This document shows positions 4,966 through 40,398 of a DNA stretch of 40,398 nt, piece after piece. Made by a program: the position numbers and the translations under genes. The stretch lies in the IMG/VR virus record IMGVR_UViG_3300021168_000054, positions 1 to 40,398 of that record; one strand, given 5' to 3'. This DNA is from a virus. Positions within the stretch are counted from its first letter, which is position 1, and each line of letters begins with the position of its first letter. Below the pieces are notes generated by a model that saw only the letters and a list, made by a program, of their open reading frames with translations, ran no database searches and was not told where the DNA came from.

Positions 4966-5442
4966 TTGGATTCAAAATCATCACCAAAACCCGTAAAAAA
5001 ACAAAAAAGATACAAACACCCACCCGGCTATAAACGCCCTGTTCAGCTTCTGAAGAATCTAAAAGCGAACCCACGAAAAGGTATCCGCAAGAAGATCTGT
5101 ACCTTATGTAAAGAGAATAAGTGGTTGGAAGATTATTACACCAACCATAAGCCCGGCCGTGGTGTTTCATATCGCAGCGAGTGCAAGGCATGCCATACAC
5201 GCCGATCAACCGAAAGAATCAATAAGACGCGTAAGAAAAAGAGTCAGGGTGGGGATCCAGTCTACCAAGCATATCAGCGCGCATATTATGCCAAGAACCG
5301 CGAACAATTTCTAGAATATCGACGCAAGTTTTTGGAACGCAACCCACGATATTTTCAGATAAAAAACAAACAACGTCTTATGAGATTGAAACAAGAAAAA
5401 ATAGATGCTATAGCTGCTTTAAACGACAAGGATTGCGCATGA
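4966..5442 (+). CDS. Zinc-ribbon basic DNA-binding protein, endonuclease VII/HNH-like N-terminus
   Basis: The start is a TTG, chosen because TTAAGGAGG lies six bases upstream. The 158-aa product is very basic. Residues about 44-77 form a zinc ribbon (CTLC ... CKAC) of the kind found at the N-terminus of phage endonuclease VII-like proteins. It is followed by Tyr/Arg/Glu-rich helices (YQAYQRAYYAKNREQF). The catalytic H-N-H segment is not visible, so nuclease activity is doubtful. It is the first gene of the replication operon and its end overlaps the initiator start by four bases (ATGA), which suggests a regulatory or DNA-binding role in replication. Confidence 0.6.
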   Translation: MDSKSSPKPVKKQKRYKHPPGYKRPVQLLKNLKANPRKGIRKKICTLCKENKWLEDYYTNHKPGRGVSYRSECKACHTRRSTERINKTRKKKSQGGDPVYQAYQRAYYAKNREQFLEYRRKFLERNPRYFQIKNKQRLMRLKQEKIDAIAALNDKDCA

Positions 5443-6380
5443 GCTTGAATCTTTCTTTTGAAACGACTAGTATCTTTGAAAAGTCCAGATCCGAGGTTTC
5501 AGCCCCGGATCTGTTAGTTGGTCTTGGTAGGACCGTTGTTAATGGTGATAGCACGATCATACCAAGCCCTCGAAATTTAGACAACAGGGTAAATAATATG
5601 ATCGGTCCATTCATCAAACTTTCTCGTGATGCTTTAGAATTAGTCGAATCAGATCCAGATGCTTTTCTTTTGCTTACTCAAATTTCTTTAAGAGCTCGTC
5701 GAAAAAAATCCAAATATGATCTTGACAATCTGGAACCCAATCAAGCTTACATCGGGGATTATAAAACAATTGGATTGACGGACAAGAGGTATCGATTAGC
5801 TAAAGAAAGGGTCGAACAAAAATATTTTCTGGCAACATTCAAAGGGACGAACAAAGGAACAATTGCAACCCTTACATCTTCAGATGTTTATGATATAAAT
5901 ATAGATTCTGAGGGCGACCAAACAGACGAACAAAAAACAATTCCGAAGGCGAACCAAGGGCGAGCGGAGGGCGAGCCAAGGGCGACTAACAAAGAATGTA
6001 AGAATGTAAGAATTAAGAATAATACCCCCATACCCCCAGCTTCGCCGGGGGCTGTTCAACTTTATGAATTCTTTATAATTTCAATGAAAAAATTTCTACC
6101 TACTTTTCCCGAATCTAAACTTCCAAAAAAAGAAACAGCTCGTAACTTTGATCGAATTTTGAAAGATCATTGTGCTGAGCGTATCAAGCAAGTAATTACT
6201 TTCGCTCATTCCGGATGGTGGTCGGCTCATGTCCACGGACCAAAATATCTGAAAGATAAATTTGAAAAAATTTCTATGTCGCTTGATCGTGATCTGAAAA
6301 CAAAAACCGGATCTAAGCCTGAAAAATCAAGTCCAGTGACTGTCGATGGACCACGGAGGGCAAATGAGCTCGTCGTTTGA
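5439..6380 (+). CDS. Replication initiator (lambda O / replisome-organizer type)
   Basis: The 313-aa product binds the origin and recruits the helicase loader. The N-terminal half (residues about 50-140) resembles the winged-helix domain of phage replisome organizers, with the signature FKGTNKGTIATLTSSDVYDI. A charged linker follows (DEQKTIPKANQGRAEGEPRA), encoded by the iterons described separately. The C-terminal domain (residues about 200-285) is helical, with ERIKQVITFAHSGWWSAHVHGPKYLKDKF, the usual segment contacting the loader. ATG 5439 overlaps the previous stop (ATGA) and lies six bases after AAGGA. An ATPase of the DnaC type follows immediately, as expected for an O/P-like pair. Confidence 0.75.
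   Translation: MSLNLSFETTSIFEKSRSEVSAPDLLVGLGRTVVNGDSTIIPSPRNLDNRVNNMIGPFIKLSRDALELVESDPDAFLLLTQISLRARRKKSKYDLDNLEPNQAYIGDYKTIGLTDKRYRLAKERVEQKYFLATFKGTNKGTIATLTSSDVYDINIDSEGDQTDEQKTIPKANQGRAEGEPRATNKECKNVRIKNNTPIPPASPGAVQLYEFFIISMKKFLPTFPESKLPKKETARNFDRILKDHCAERIKQVITFAHSGWWSAHVHGPKYLKDKFEKISMSLDRDLKTKTGSKPEKSSPVTVDGPRRANELVV
5945..6023. other. Predicted origin: four 11-bp iterons plus AT-rich repeats inside the initiator gene
   Basis: GGCGA recurs at 5948, 5959, 5970 and 5981, giving four direct repeats spaced exactly 11 bp (consensus GGCGARCCAAG); a fifth GGCGACCAAA lies at 5913. Because 11 is not a multiple of three, the repeats change reading phase, so the selection is on DNA rather than protein. 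They are followed at once by an AT-rich tract of 8-bp repeats (AAGAATGT at 5992 and 6000, AAGAATTA at 6008), a likely unwinding element. A C5/G5 hairpin lies at 6033-6051. Iterons within the initiator gene followed by an AT-rich element is the layout of the lambda origin in gene O. Confidence 0.7.
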
Positions 6381-6921
6381 GGGTGGTTTTTTTGGTGGAC
6401 AATGTCCTGAGAGATTCAGAAATTGCAGGCTAGAAACTCTTGATCGTCAATCCTCTTCCCTAATCGAATTCGGCAAAGCATGGGCGAATAACCCCACATC
6501 TGTTTTTGTCTATGGAGGTGTTGGAAGTGGAAAAACACACTATGCTTTTGCAATTGTGAGAGAATACATTCGTTGCCAGGGTAAATGGCCGAGATTTTAT
6601 ACTAGTCCAAATCTCGATTCAATTCTCTGCAAATCTATCATGGAAAAAGGCGATCATTATCTTATCGAACAGATCTCCAAAGAAGATTTATTAATTGTCG
6701 ATGATTTTGGGAGAGAAACAAAAAGCGATCGTATCAGAAGGCAATATTTTGAAATTTTCAACAATCGTTATGCGAATAATTTACCTACGATTGTCACCAG
6801 CAATTACGATTTGACTTGGATCGGCGAAAATCTTGGAGAAGCGATTGCTTCTCGGTTTGAAACATTTCAGATGATACGTTTCACAGGAAAAGATCTACGA
6901 AAACAAGAAATAGTAATTTAA
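6364..6921 (+). CDS. DnaC-like helicase loader ATPase (AAA+)
   Basis: The 185-aa product has Walker A GGVGSGKT (residues about 51-58), Walker B LLIVDDFG (109-116), a sensor TSN (about 145-147) and a C-terminal SRF segment that usually carries the arginine finger. It is the size of the AAA+ core of DnaC/IstB-type loaders, which place the replicative helicase on melted DNA. The start at ATG 6364 is supported by GGAGGG four bases upstream; a longer in-frame start at 6346 lacks a site. It overlaps the end of the initiator gene by 17 bases, giving an initiator-loader pair. Confidence 0.8.
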   Translation: MSSSFEGGFFGGQCPERFRNCRLETLDRQSSSLIEFGKAWANNPTSVFVYGGVGSGKTHYAFAIVREYIRCQGKWPRFYTSPNLDSILCKSIMEKGDHYLIEQISKEDLLIVDDFGRETKSDRIRRQYFEIFNNRYANNLPTIVTSNYDLTWIGENLGEAIASRFETFQMIRFTGKDLRKQEIVI

Positions 6922-29728: not shown

Positions 29729-30337
29729 ATGACTTATCAAACAAACATCCCAAACTCTGGACAATCTCCGGGACTGTTTCCAGCTCAAGCGAACGCTAAC
29801 TTTACACGTTTGAAAACCATTGTAGGGGCCAACCACAAGTTCAATGATACAGCAGCTACGGATGATGGATATCATCAAGATATCAAAATTCTACCCATAG
29901 CTGTTCCTGGGACAGATGCCACCATAGGACAATTGTTTGCTAACACAGCAATCTCATCCTTCCCATTGTCTTATGTAGATGGTCTAAATAATCTCTATCA
30001 AATTACACCTACACTTCCGGTTCGAGCAGCTGTAAACTTTAGCGTGACTCCAGTAACGTTTGCTATCACGATAAATTATTCACAAAATGTCGCTTCAGTA
30101 GTTAGAACTTCAAATGGACTTTATACGATTACTTTCACAATAGCAATGCCATCAAATTTTTACATTGCATCTGGTATGTGTATGTTCCCTTTTGGCACTA
30201 ATATTCCTCTTCAAATTCAGGGAAATGCAACCTATGGGAATTCTGTGACAACAGGACATGTAAAAATTGACACTGGTGTCGATGGCACATCTAGTGCTGA
30301 TCCTATTAATGTCATGCTCTTAATTAGCGGAGGGTAA
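29729..30337 (+). CDS. Tail or fibre-base protein of unknown function
   Basis: The 202-aa product begins with IPNSGQSPGLFPAQANANFT, followed by LKTIVGANHKFND and DDGYHQDI. Similar openings (I-P-x-x-x-x-x-x-S-Q-x-x-x-x-x-N-F-x-x-[LI] ... D-H-x-F-N ... G-x-H) occur at the N-terminus of virion proteins in environmental podoviruses. The remainder is beta-rich. It shares one base with the next gene (TAATG), so their synthesis is coupled. Confidence 0.6.
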   Translation: MTYQTNIPNSGQSPGLFPAQANANFTRLKTIVGANHKFNDTAATDDGYHQDIKILPIAVPGTDATIGQLFANTAISSFPLSYVDGLNNLYQITPTLPVRAAVNFSVTPVTFAITINYSQNVASVVRTSNGLYTITFTIAMPSNFYIASGMCMFPFGTNIPLQIQGNATYGNSVTTGHVKIDTGVDGTSSADPINVMLLISGG

Positions 30338-32733
30338 TGAGCGCTTCATACGTTCCCTATCTAATTGCCAAATATGTAACTGGGTTAGACAATTCGGTTC
30401 AGCCGTGGCTACAGCCAGATGATTCCCAAGAATCTTTGCTGGATGGTTTCGTTTATCGTGGAGTATGGAATAAGCGCCCTGGTTTTGATCAATATGCTAC
30501 CGGGCAACAAGGTGGTTCAGCTTACACAGAATCGCGTATAATCACTACGACGACATCTGAGTCCTATGGGACTGGAAATGGCACCGCAGGGCCATATACA
30601 CACACAGCCGCTCATATCCCTCTTAGCCGCGGATCTATTACCATCACAGCTGGAGCTCAATCAGCAACTGATGACGGTCTAGGCAACTTTGTTACCACCC
30701 CAGCTGGTGGTAGTGGCACGGTCAATTATACCACAGGGGCGATGTCTATTACTTTTAATGCCATCGTTGCCGTAGCTCAAGCTATAACAGTAACCTATAG
30801 CGCTTTTCCAGGGCTTCCAGTGATGATGGTGGCTAACTATTACACTTCAGCCGGTGTACGTGAATTAATTGTTGCCGATACTCGCAATGTCAATAGATAT
30901 AACGAAACTACCAATAGATTGGATTTCCTTGCTTTACCAATTACATTGACGGGAAACAATCACAATTTCTTCACTTGGGTCAACTATCCGGATGCTTCAA
31001 ATAACAAAAGGCTTCTTTTCGCCAACAGTGTTGATCCAATTCTCCAATATGATGGCACAACCATAACCGTCTATGCCTTTACATTGACTGGCGTGACCAC
31101 CCTAAGTGCATTGCTGATGTTTCAATTGAAAGACCGTCTAATTCTATTAAGAACTCGTGAAGATGGTGTTGTGTTTGGGCAAAGAATTAGAATATCTGGA
31201 ACCGGTGCTAACAGTGATGTTTTTGATACGACTGCGACAGGGGCTGGCGTCATCGACATCCCTGATGCTTCGTTTATCTTTGCAGCTGCTTTCAATAGAG
31301 ATGATCTAGTTATCTTTACAGAGAACTCCACTTGGATATTACAATTCACCGGAAGCGATGTTGTTCCCTTTACTTTAGTTCGGCTTGATAGCAGCCGCGG
31401 CTCTGGAGCTCCTTTTTCTGGGTTCACTTATCTAGAGCGAACTACAACCATCAGTCCAAGGGGATATATCGGTACGGATGGCTATCGCGTAGATAGAATC
31501 GATGACAAAATTCCGGAATATTCTTTCGATCAAATCGATCAAAGTAATTTTGATCTGTGCTTCGCGGGTTCTGTCGATGAAGACCGCGATCTTTATCTGA
31601 TACACCCTTCTCCCCAAAACCCTACTTCAGATCGCATTTTAGTGACTAACTATGAAGAAGACAATTATTGCGTCTATAGAATTCCACTTAGCTGCATGGG
31701 AAACTTCATTGAATCGTTTAATACGACATGGACCGACATGTTGGAGTTCGAGAACTGGGATGAAATGGCAGAAAGATTCGGGAATTGGCAAGCCTTTAGC
31801 TACACGAAGGGACTTCCTTTTGCTGTTGGTGGTGGACAAAATGGTCAGATCTGGCGTCTGAATGTGAATGGTATTGAAGACGATCCAGTGCGCATTAGAA
31901 ATGCCACAGTTATCGATTCGCATACTCTTCAGATAGAAACCGACTTTAACATTTTTGTTGATGGCGATTACATATTTATCAATGGAATGTCTGGAATGGC
32001 AGAAGGCAATGATAAACAGGGTGCCATCAAAAGCATTATCACCCCTAATCGTGTCTTTCAACTTGATATGCCAACCGATCGATTTTCTTCATACACATCT
32101 GGGGGCTTTGCCTCTAGAGTAATACCCTTTGAATCGACAACCAAAAAATTCAACCCCTTTTCTCAAAATGCACAAAAAGTCCGATGTGGCTATTTATACA
32201 TGTACGTCTCGGCATCCAATACTGGCGTTACTAGAAATATTAATTTGGTTAATATTACTCAAACGAATCCTGCAATTGTAACTGCAAATAATCATCAATT
32301 TAAAAACAATCAGATAATTACAATTCACGGTGCTGGAGGAATGACCCAAATCAATGGTCTAGCTTCAGAGATCACAGTCATCGATCAAAACACGTTCTCA
32401 TTGAATGCCATCGATGCAACGGCTTTCTCAGCATACACATCTGGGGGCGTGGCAAGCGGCCCAGAAGAATGCTTCATAGATGTCGAAATCATCACAAATG
32501 ACAATCTAAATGTCACTCAAGTGGAAGATGCTTCATTGATTACCTATCAGCACCCATATCGCATTAACTGCACACCGGATAACAATGATCTTGGAAGCAA
32601 AAGATGGGTGAAGATTTTCATCAATCAGACAGCGCGATTCATCCAATTTAAGTTGACGAACACACAAGCACTTTCTGTTATCCAAATTCAAGCCATGATG
32701 CCGGGATTTGCAGGTGTCGGGAGATTAATCTAA
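30337..32733 (+). CDS. Large tail protein, probable nozzle/stabilisation protein
   Basis: The 798-aa product starts MSASYVPYLIAKYVTGLDNS. It resembles nozzle or tail-stabilisation proteins of short-tailed phages in size, position after the adaptor and beta-propeller-like repeats (RELIVADTRNVNRYN, LIHPSPQNPTSDRILVTNYE). Two FCCH-like inserts are visible: residues about 518-595 (TVIDSHTLQI ... SSYTSGGF) and 632-707 (NITQTNPAIVTANNHQFKNN ... SAYTSGGV). The end is a basic/beta domain. It overlaps the neighbours on each side by one base, a tight tail cluster. Confidence 0.65.
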   Translation: MSASYVPYLIAKYVTGLDNSVQPWLQPDDSQESLLDGFVYRGVWNKRPGFDQYATGQQGGSAYTESRIITTTTSESYGTGNGTAGPYTHTAAHIPLSRGSITITAGAQSATDDGLGNFVTTPAGGSGTVNYTTGAMSITFNAIVAVAQAITVTYSAFPGLPVMMVANYYTSAGVRELIVADTRNVNRYNETTNRLDFLALPITLTGNNHNFFTWVNYPDASNNKRLLFANSVDPILQYDGTTITVYAFTLTGVTTLSALLMFQLKDRLILLRTREDGVVFGQRIRISGTGANSDVFDTTATGAGVIDIPDASFIFAAAFNRDDLVIFTENSTWILQFTGSDVVPFTLVRLDSSRGSGAPFSGFTYLERTTTISPRGYIGTDGYRVDRIDDKIPEYSFDQIDQSNFDLCFAGSVDEDRDLYLIHPSPQNPTSDRILVTNYEEDNYCVYRIPLSCMGNFIESFNTTWTDMLEFENWDEMAERFGNWQAFSYTKGLPFAVGGGQNGQIWRLNVNGIEDDPVRIRNATVIDSHTLQIETDFNIFVDGDYIFINGMSGMAEGNDKQGAIKSIITPNRVFQLDMPTDRFSSYTSGGFASRVIPFESTTKKFNPFSQNAQKVRCGYLYMYVSASNTGVTRNINLVNITQTNPAIVTANNHQFKNNQIITIHGAGGMTQINGLASEITVIDQNTFSLNAIDATAFSAYTSGGVASGPEECFIDVEIITNDNLNVTQVEDASLITYQHPYRINCTPDNNDLGSKRWVKIFINQTARFIQFKLTNTQALSVIQIQAMMPGFAGVGRLI

Positions 32734-38804: not shown

Positions 38805-40398
38805 GTCAGGCTGGCCCAGTAGATTTTATCACGAATCATCCACAAATCCCTGTCCAGTTCAATGGAAATACTGGATCTGCGGTCCCCATTGGGAACCAAT
38901 TAAATATCTTCGGTGCTGTCGTAGCAGCAGGAAGTACCCCGGTCGCCACTGTCGCTTCAGGCATGACAGTGACTACGAATGTTCAGATCTCACAGGCTAT
39001 TGCCTCATCAGATGCAACTAAAATTGGATTGGCTGCTTTCAATTCAACAGACTTCTCAGTGGACGCTAATGGTTTGGTTTCATTAACGGCTCTAGTTGCT
39101 GCCACTAAAATGCAGGTAGATACTTTCACTGCACCAGGAACAAATCCAGTGAATCCGAATGGCTCTGGCGTGATCACAGTGACAGGTGGACAAGTTGCCG
39201 CCGGAACGACAACGAATGTCATACAAACTGATTCATTGGCAGCGAATACTTTCACAATTCAAATCCAACGTAGTTCTGCTCAGGCTGGATCTACAGTCGG
39301 AGCCAATGGCGTTTCTCATTTTGACACTGCATCGTTTACCGTCGATAGCAATGCATTTGTTGGGCTTAAAAGCTCTGCATTGGGTGTCTTAACAGTCTCT
39401 GGAACGGCTAATAGAATCACCTCTACGGGTGGTCAGAATCCTGTTATAGACATCTCTGCTGCATATGTCGGACAAACATCCATAACTACTCTGGGGACCA
39501 TAACTACCGGCGTTTGGAATGGCACAGCAATTGATCTAGCAAACTTCGTTTCCGGCAACCTAGCTGTGACGCATTTAAACAGTGGTACAAGCGCATCAGC
39601 AACCACATTCTGGCGTGGGGATGGTACATGGGCTACACCGGCTGGAACAGGCGTTACAAGCGTTTCTGGTACACTTAACCGAATCACATCGACTGGTGGC
39701 ACAACTCCAGTCATAGACATTTCAGCTTCATATGTTGGACAGGCATCTATAACGACTCTTGGCACTATTACGACTGGGGTATGGAATGGAACTGCTATTG
39801 ACTTAGCCTCATTCGTTAGTGGCAACTTGGCGGTTACGCATCTAAACAGTGGAACCAGTGCTTCTTCTTCAACATTTTGGAGAGGCGACGGAACATGGGC
39901 CACCCCAGCGGGAACTGGCGTAACCAGTGTATCTGGGACAACAAATCGAATTACATCTACCGGTGGAACTACACCCGTCATCGATATATCAGCTGCGTAT
40001 GTGGGACAAAGTTCAATTACCACTCTAGGTACGATCACAACTGGAGTCTGGAACGGAACAGCCATTGATTTAGCAAGCTTTGTATCGGGAAACTTAGCAG
40101 TAACTCATCTTAATAGCGGAACTTCAGCTTCTGCCACGACTTTCTGGAGAGGTGATGGGACGTGGGCTACTCCGACAGGTACAGGTTTCACCACTATCAA
40201 TGTGCAAACTTTCACATCAACAGGAACCTACACCCCAACAGCCAATATGAAATATTGCATTATCGAATGTGTGGGGGGCGGAGGTGGGGGCGGAGGATCT
40301 GCCAATACATCGGCTGGTCAATCAGCAGCTGGCGGTGGTGGGGGGGGCGGAGGCTATGGAAGAAAGTTTGCTTCTGCCGCTACTATTGGAGCTTCTCA
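38801..40398 (+). CDS. N-terminal part of glycine-rich tail fibre 1 (continues into bases 1-552)
   Basis: ATG 38801 overlaps the previous TGA (ATGA). Through the 140-bp terminal overlap the reading frame is continuous with 1-552, so the full gene is about 669 codons. Domains: an N-terminal beta region (residues about 1-100) with the repeat-like segment [16 protein letters not shown]; a region near 105-190 matching fibre 2; three tandem 89-residue repeats (199-465, described separately); and a short bridge [15 protein letters not shown] leading into the glycine-rich tip. It is probably the main receptor-binding fibre. Confidence 0.85.
39395..40195 (+). repeat. Three tandem 89-residue (267-bp) fibre repeats
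   Basis: Units start at 39395, 39662 and 39929 and are exactly 267 bp. Each begins VSGT-x-NRITSTGG and contains [38 protein letters not shown] and [11 protein letters not shown]. Proteins differ at only about 8 of 89 residues, yet the DNA differs at many third positions (for example three different codons are used for the same Gly, Thr and Ser). The repeats form a periodic shaft region of the fibre. Confidence 0.9.
40259..40398. repeat. Right copy of 140-bp terminal direct repeat
   Basis: The copy matches bases 1-140 apart from three T/G differences near its start (TGTGTG here versus GGGGGG there). Removing one copy gives a circle of about 40,258 bp. The copy here keeps the codons TGT-GTG after IIE and is probably the true sequence. 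Confidence 0.9.

Follow-up and report, generated by a model that had tools for sequence, protein, structure and literature searches.

A probable replication origin of head-to-tail 11-bp iterons within the initiator gene of a phage

Replication origins that lie inside initiator genes have long been known. The O/ori locus of phage lambda is a precedent: repeated initiator sites in the middle of the gene are followed by about 40 bp of purine-rich, AT-rich sequence and then by a hairpin (PMC7466680). In lambda, each iteron is an imperfect inverted repeat of 18-19 bp, the iterons are spaced at about 20-24 bp, and the helicase loader is P. In phage SPP1, gp38 binds the direct repeats of oriL within gene 38 with nanomolar affinity, and an AT-rich element adjoins them (PMC6316719). 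Genes for a helicase loader and a helicase follow gene 38, and SPP1 has a second origin, oriR. The staphylococcal RepA_N plasmid pSK41 has its ori in the part of the Rep gene that encodes the central linker between the winged-helix and C-terminal recruitment domains. Oligomeric N-terminal domains bind its four Rep boxes, and the linker peptide encoded by ori is dispensable when ori is supplied (PMC5703833). In the chimeric Rep of the staphylococcal plasmid pPR9, a block of ~500 bp comprising the N-terminal domain and ori has been swapped as one piece for a phage-like HTH, and the mini-replicon works (PMC5703833).

The DNA analysed here (the window, 40,398 nucleotides) is a single IMG/VR virus record, IMGVR_UViG_3300021168_000054. 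A 116-bp exact terminal repeat (25-140 = 40283-40398) makes it very probable that this is a complete phage genome of ~40.3 kb, assembled as a circle. A gene for a glycine-rich fibre is divided between the two ends of the window, and runs of G at its start look like sequencing or assembly error. The phage carries genes for a P22-like portal, a tail fibre, a RecT-like protein, an exonuclease, RusA and a DnaC-like loader. A large protein of the structural region (30337-32733) matches Pfam E1_FCCH, a domain of the ubiquitin-activating enzyme E1, above the cut-off (3e-19, two stretches), which is odd for a phage protein.

We conclude, with a probability of roughly nine in ten, that positions 5948-6051 are the replication origin of this phage and lie within its own initiator gene (Table 1). 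The origin would be of the lambda/SPP1 type, used with a DnaC-like loader, and built of short, non-palindromic, head-to-tail iterons. Computationally, we observe the array itself, the AT-rich tract, the gene context, conservation of the period across homologues and codon registers, and the joint exchange of array and DNA-binding domain.

Table 1. Coordinates of the proposed origin, the surrounding genes and predicted domains, and a related initiator pair (window positions unless a locus is named).
Feature	Position	Strand	Basis or remark
Initiator gene (predicted winged-helix, O/DnaD-like replisome organizer)	5439..6380	+	class from PHROG matches of relatives
Predicted winged-helix DNA-binding domain, coding region	5610..5882	+	residues ~60-150, AlphaFold2
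Predicted disordered linker, coding region	5886..6029	+	residues 152-199, pLDDT < 50
Iteron array GGCGAACCAAG, GGCGAGCGGAG, GGCGAGCCAAG, GGCGA	5948..5985	+	11-bp head-to-tail units, non-palindromic
AT-rich (79%), purine-rich tract, proposed DNA unwinding element	5986..6024	+	composition; ~40-bp A-rich tract after the array in 39 loci
8-bp AAGAATGT repeats within the AT-rich tract	5992..6020	+	repeat detection
G/C hairpin CCCCC-AGCTTCGCC-GGGGG	6033..6051	+	directly after the AT-rich tract; same place as the family hairpin peak and the lambda ori hairpin
C-terminal helical domain, coding region	6045..6308	+	related via L028 to the lambda O C-terminal domain
DnaC-like helicase loader	6346..6921	+	overlaps the 3' end of the initiator gene
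Swapped initiator pair	L144 828-1625; L152 1189-1986		shared AT tract and C-terminus, exchanged DNA-binding domain and iterons

The initiator ORF spans 5433-6380. Its ATG at 5439 overlaps the stop codon of the upstream ORF (TGA, 5440-5442), and homologues start near the position of ATG 5598. AlphaFold2 models residues 61-150 with pLDDT of ~72-92 in the order H-H-E-H-H-E-E, and the C-terminal helical part at low confidence. The array falls exactly within the predicted disordered linker. The product of the adjoining loader gene matches PHROG 50 (DnaC-like helicase loader, 4e-33) and Pfam IstB (3e-11) and Bac_DnaA (6e-11).

The class of the initiator is suggested by its relatives. No Pfam match was found for the window protein at E 0.1, and its match to PHROG 2514 (DnaD-like) is weak (E 0.08); it is too divergent to pass the thresholds of PHROG 2514 and Phage_rep_org_N. 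A profile search of PDB sequences gave no convincing relative, and a PDB fold search with the model returned generic winged-helix proteins only (E > 0.3, none at E <= 0.001). A search for related loci with the whole protein, also too divergent for this purpose, found nothing. Thus, relatives were reached via Vibrio phage 1.177.O, Cellulophaga phage phi18:3 and a DNA pattern. The initiator aligns with the protein of Vibrio phage 1.177.O at 40% over 146 aa, with that of viral locus L028 at 34% over 253 aa and with that of a Listeria prophage (L044) at 26%. The PHROG families of the relatives are DnaD-like helicase loader, replisome organizer and replication initiation O-like. Matches of the replisome-organizer type are strong in L028 (O-like, 1e-15), L044 (DnaD-like, 1e-60), L015, L031, L100, L084 and L121, and L100, which bears an array, also matches Pfam Phage_rep_org_N. 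PHROG 2514, PHROG 391 (O-like) and Phage_rep_org_N are therefore matched by relatives, whereas the window protein stays below their thresholds. The C-terminal domain of L028 is homologous to its lambda O counterpart (30% identity over 74 aa, E 4e-11), and that of L044 is 43% identical to the same lambda domain over 74 residues. The link of the window initiator to this O-family domain runs through L028 and is not direct.

The first-pass annotation reported GGCGA at 5948, 5959, 5970 and 5981, with an exact 11-bp period, and AT-rich 8-bp repeats immediately after. Both are present in the sequence, the latter with AAGAAT at 5992, 6000, 6008 and 6015, and Tandem Repeats Finder independently returned an 11-bp array (5948-5985) and an 8-bp array (5992-6020). 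A fifth GGCGA, at 5913, is out of register. The iteron consensus can be written GGCGARC. The 11-bp units are 74% GC, and the best circular identity of the unit to its own reverse complement is 6/11. The 39 bp on the 3' side of the array are 79% AT, a value reached by only 1.2% of the 39-mers in the window. No DnaA box (at most one mismatch) was identified in the array or AT-rich tract, the nearest being at 6261 and 6526. Thus, a DnaA-driven origin at the array is not indicated either.

The periodicity stands out from the rest of the genome. When periods of 7-33 were scanned over the 40.4-kb window, only two places had at least 24/33 matches, and the array was the best (25/33, period 11). None of 60 order-1 Markov genomes of the same size and dinucleotide content reached 25/33 at any period. 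The encoded peptide was also recoded synonymously 20,000 times with the codon usage of the phage; no recoding reached the observed 26/37 at period 11, and none contained four in-register GGCGA. It had been argued from the sequence that a period of 11 bp does not keep step with codons, so that protein repeats could not be the explanation. The argument holds: the array covers an 11-residue peptide period ~1.3 times and is therefore not a protein repeat. The 11-bp period is a property of the DNA, not of the peptide.

The same period is found in related genes. We chose 27 homologues by protein similarity outside the linker and then scanned their linkers at periods 7 to 30. The mean best score peaks at period 11 (22.4/33, vs. 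14.9 for codon-shuffled linkers), with a harmonic at period 22 (19.6 vs. 14.7). The best period is 11 in 15 of these linkers and 22 in two. A second peak, at 9 and 18, apparently reflects in-frame AAGAATGAA-type repeats of the AT tract. Arrays of 11 bp occupy the same place in the genes of Vibrio phage 1.177.O (motif GGCAAGCGACA) and Cellulophaga phage phi18:3 (motif GGCAAGCAAAG). The DNA after the array is similar in these two phages, and ACTAACAAAGAATGTAA is identical in the window and 1.177.O. Other motifs are GCAAACGAATS in V. breoganii phages, CAACAAGTAAC in HS2 and GTCCAGCCGAT in Klebsiella phage Chronis. No clear 11-bp array was seen in some homologues (Vibrio phage jenny, Bacillus phage 031MP004 and Paenibacillus phage Tadhana). 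Across homologues, motifs vary and the 11-bp period stays. The earlier proposal to look for homologues that keep the linker peptide and lose the period thus had the opposite outcome: the period is mostly kept and the linker peptides differ.

The DNA pattern GGCRASCNRNGGGCRASCNRNGGGCRAS was found at 41 loci in viral contigs, 37 of them in initiator ORFs by our reading of the translations. One candidate, the first pattern place in Dulem virus 31 (L141), was rejected as an initiator because it is a frame artefact opposite short ORFs. This virus (PP511318.1; L136, L141) is filed under Microviridae, a label that looks wrong for a 35.8-kb sequence with a replisome organizer, an exonuclease and a CI repressor. 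Bacterial genomes, from which loci under 58% GC were taken and seven kept, have the pattern in initiators of probable prophages in Ruminococcus, Listeria, Bacteroidales, Prevotella, Gallispira and Akkermansiaceae. Several other matches in bacterial genomes are ordinary tandem repeats outside initiators and were set aside. Also outside initiator genes are the 11-bp tandem repeats GGGCAACCTAT / GGGYGACCTAT (L045, L066, L055 and L067), from Cellvibrionales, a marine gammaproteobacterium and Paludibacteraceae; these are probably unrelated.

In 34 non-redundant initiators matched by the pattern, the last unit is in codon register 0, 1 and 2 in 10, 12 and 12 cases, respectively. A protein constraint would favour one register; thus, the DNA is conserved and not the peptide. 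This bears on the idea that the repeats are kept for the protein, as a charged Gly/Gln/Arg/Lys linker with a function of its own. Many relatives do encode similar peptides (KGQAKGKQRAS type), and TNK.. is common in the translation of the AT tract. However, such a function would account neither for the even use of registers nor for a DNA period that synonymous recoding did not give, the 11-bp spacing is kept across different motifs and peptides, and the pSK41 linker is dispensable (PMC5703833). We regard this as the least probable of the alternatives considered here.

The sequence that follows the arrays also fits an origin. Over 39 loci, the array is about 62% GC, purine-rich, and ends abruptly. 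The next ~40 bp are ~75% AT, with 56-64% A on the coding strand, after which composition returns to average. Single-strand folding peaks at +40 to +50 past the last unit (mean z about -1.3), where z is below -2 in 14/39 loci, vs. 0-4/39 upstream of the tract. The window hairpin has a folding z of -0.87, which is not significant in the window alone. Lambda (J02459, L148), read identically, shows its annotated iterons, then an A/G-rich tract and then the hairpin ATTCGTCAGAGAATTCTGGCGAAT. In the lambda record (J02459.1), O and P are labelled 'cII (antitermination;119)', evidently an annotation error.

An array in a linker predicted to be disordered could in principle be a neutral minisatellite, expanded by slippage and without a role as DNA. 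Related 11-bp tandem repeats do occur outside genes in some bacterial genomes (e.g., L045 and L066). Yet spacing in the window is exact although the units have drifted apart in sequence (identity of 74-89% over the 19-bp repeat). The motif recurs at the same position of the gene, in phages and prophages of several bacterial phyla and in all three codon registers, the arrays as a group precede a 40-bp AT tract, and an array has been exchanged together with a DNA-binding domain (see below). We consider a neutral minisatellite highly improbable.

The site is not marked by GC skew. A cumulative GC skew plot, suggested in the first-pass annotation as a check, has no extremum at 5.9 kb and only a minimum near 12.5 kb, and lends no support to an origin here; skew in the window follows gene orientation. 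The absence of a skew signal would fit an operator, through which the initiator regulates its own operon while replication starts elsewhere, and iteron-type sites can also serve autoregulation in plasmids. However, the array is in the middle of the gene and is followed by an AT tract and a hairpin instead of promoter elements, and its counterparts at the same place in lambda and SPP1 are proven origins. Thus, we think it quite unlikely that the array is an operator, and favour an origin.

A natural domain swap in Lacticaseibacillus elements links the iterons to the protein domain that would read them. The initiator genes of Lactobacillus phage BH1 and of an L. zeae plasmid are near-identical from the AT tract to the gene end (55-60/60 bases per block) and have most of the first 24 bases in common. 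The DNA encoding the DNA-binding domain between these parts shows no relationship, and the two genes have different 11-bp iterons (GAACAGCTACC in BH1 vs. GACAAGCAACT in the L. zeae plasmid). The recognition domain and its sites have thus been replaced jointly, with the AT tract and C-terminal domain retained. The pPR9 exchange (PMC5703833) is a parallel. The BH1 / L. zeae pair is a ready test system for initiator-iteron specificity.

The locus can be compared with the known systems on these grounds. The analogy with the lambda ori drawn at first reading holds for iterons followed by an A-rich tract, across the family for a folding peak where lambda has its hairpin, and for the C-terminal domain of relatives, which is homologous to that of lambda O. 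It does not hold for the iterons, which are 11-bp direct, non-palindromic units, nor for the loader, which is DnaC/IstB-like. As 18-19-bp inverted-repeat iterons and a P-type loader were looked for and not found, the locus falls outside a strict definition of the lambda ori. From its published description, SPP1 oriL/gp38 is alike in having direct repeats and an AT-rich unwinding element in a replisome organizer gene, and in the window phage, too, a loader gene adjoins the initiator; oriR is a difference. With pSK41 the locus shares the placement of the sites in a linker between a winged-helix domain and a C-terminal domain. Unlike RepA_N plasmids, the window initiator has no RepA_N domain (no Pfam match at E 0.1, and only generic winged helices in the fold search).

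By analogy with lambda, SPP1 and pSK41, initiator binding, melting, helicase loading and the start of replication would all take place here. The winged helix of the initiator would bind the GGCGARC iterons. With asymmetric 11-bp units in tandem, each helical turn would carry one protomer, and the protomers would follow one another head-to-tail along a single face of the DNA. The bound complex would melt the adjoining 39 bp of A-rich DNA. The host replicative helicase would be brought to the opened strand by the initiator's C-terminal part, acting with the DnaC-like loader. Beyond the tract, the hairpin may limit the melted region or stabilise it.

A wider proposal, for and against which we see the balance as even, is that such loci form a large unnamed origin class in phages and prophages of Bacillota, Bacteroidota, Verrucomicrobiota and Pseudomonadota. 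Monomers would bind head-to-tail at asymmetric sites with a spacing of exactly one helical turn (11 bp), form a short helical filament and melt a fixed ~40-bp A-rich tract. The DNA-binding domain and iterons would be an exchangeable cassette before a conserved AT tract and C-terminal recruitment domain. The open-access literature that we searched gave no account of 11-bp iterons within phage initiator genes, which is not proof of novelty. Apparently undescribed there are the class of 11-bp direct iterons, its spread over several phyla, its frame independence and the cassette exchange with the DNA-binding domain.

The features identified here amount to a sequence rule: an 11-bp direct array, then a ~40-bp A-rich tract, then a hairpin, inside an O/DnaD-like gene. 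With this rule, sequence alone could suffice to locate origins in many uncultivated phages and prophages. Two questions also become testable. One is how initiators with one protomer per turn melt DNA without palindromic sites of the lambda type. The other concerns the evolution of origin specificity where a gene carries the very sites that its own product recognises. That the array is independent of frame shows cleanly how a DNA function can override the reading frame.
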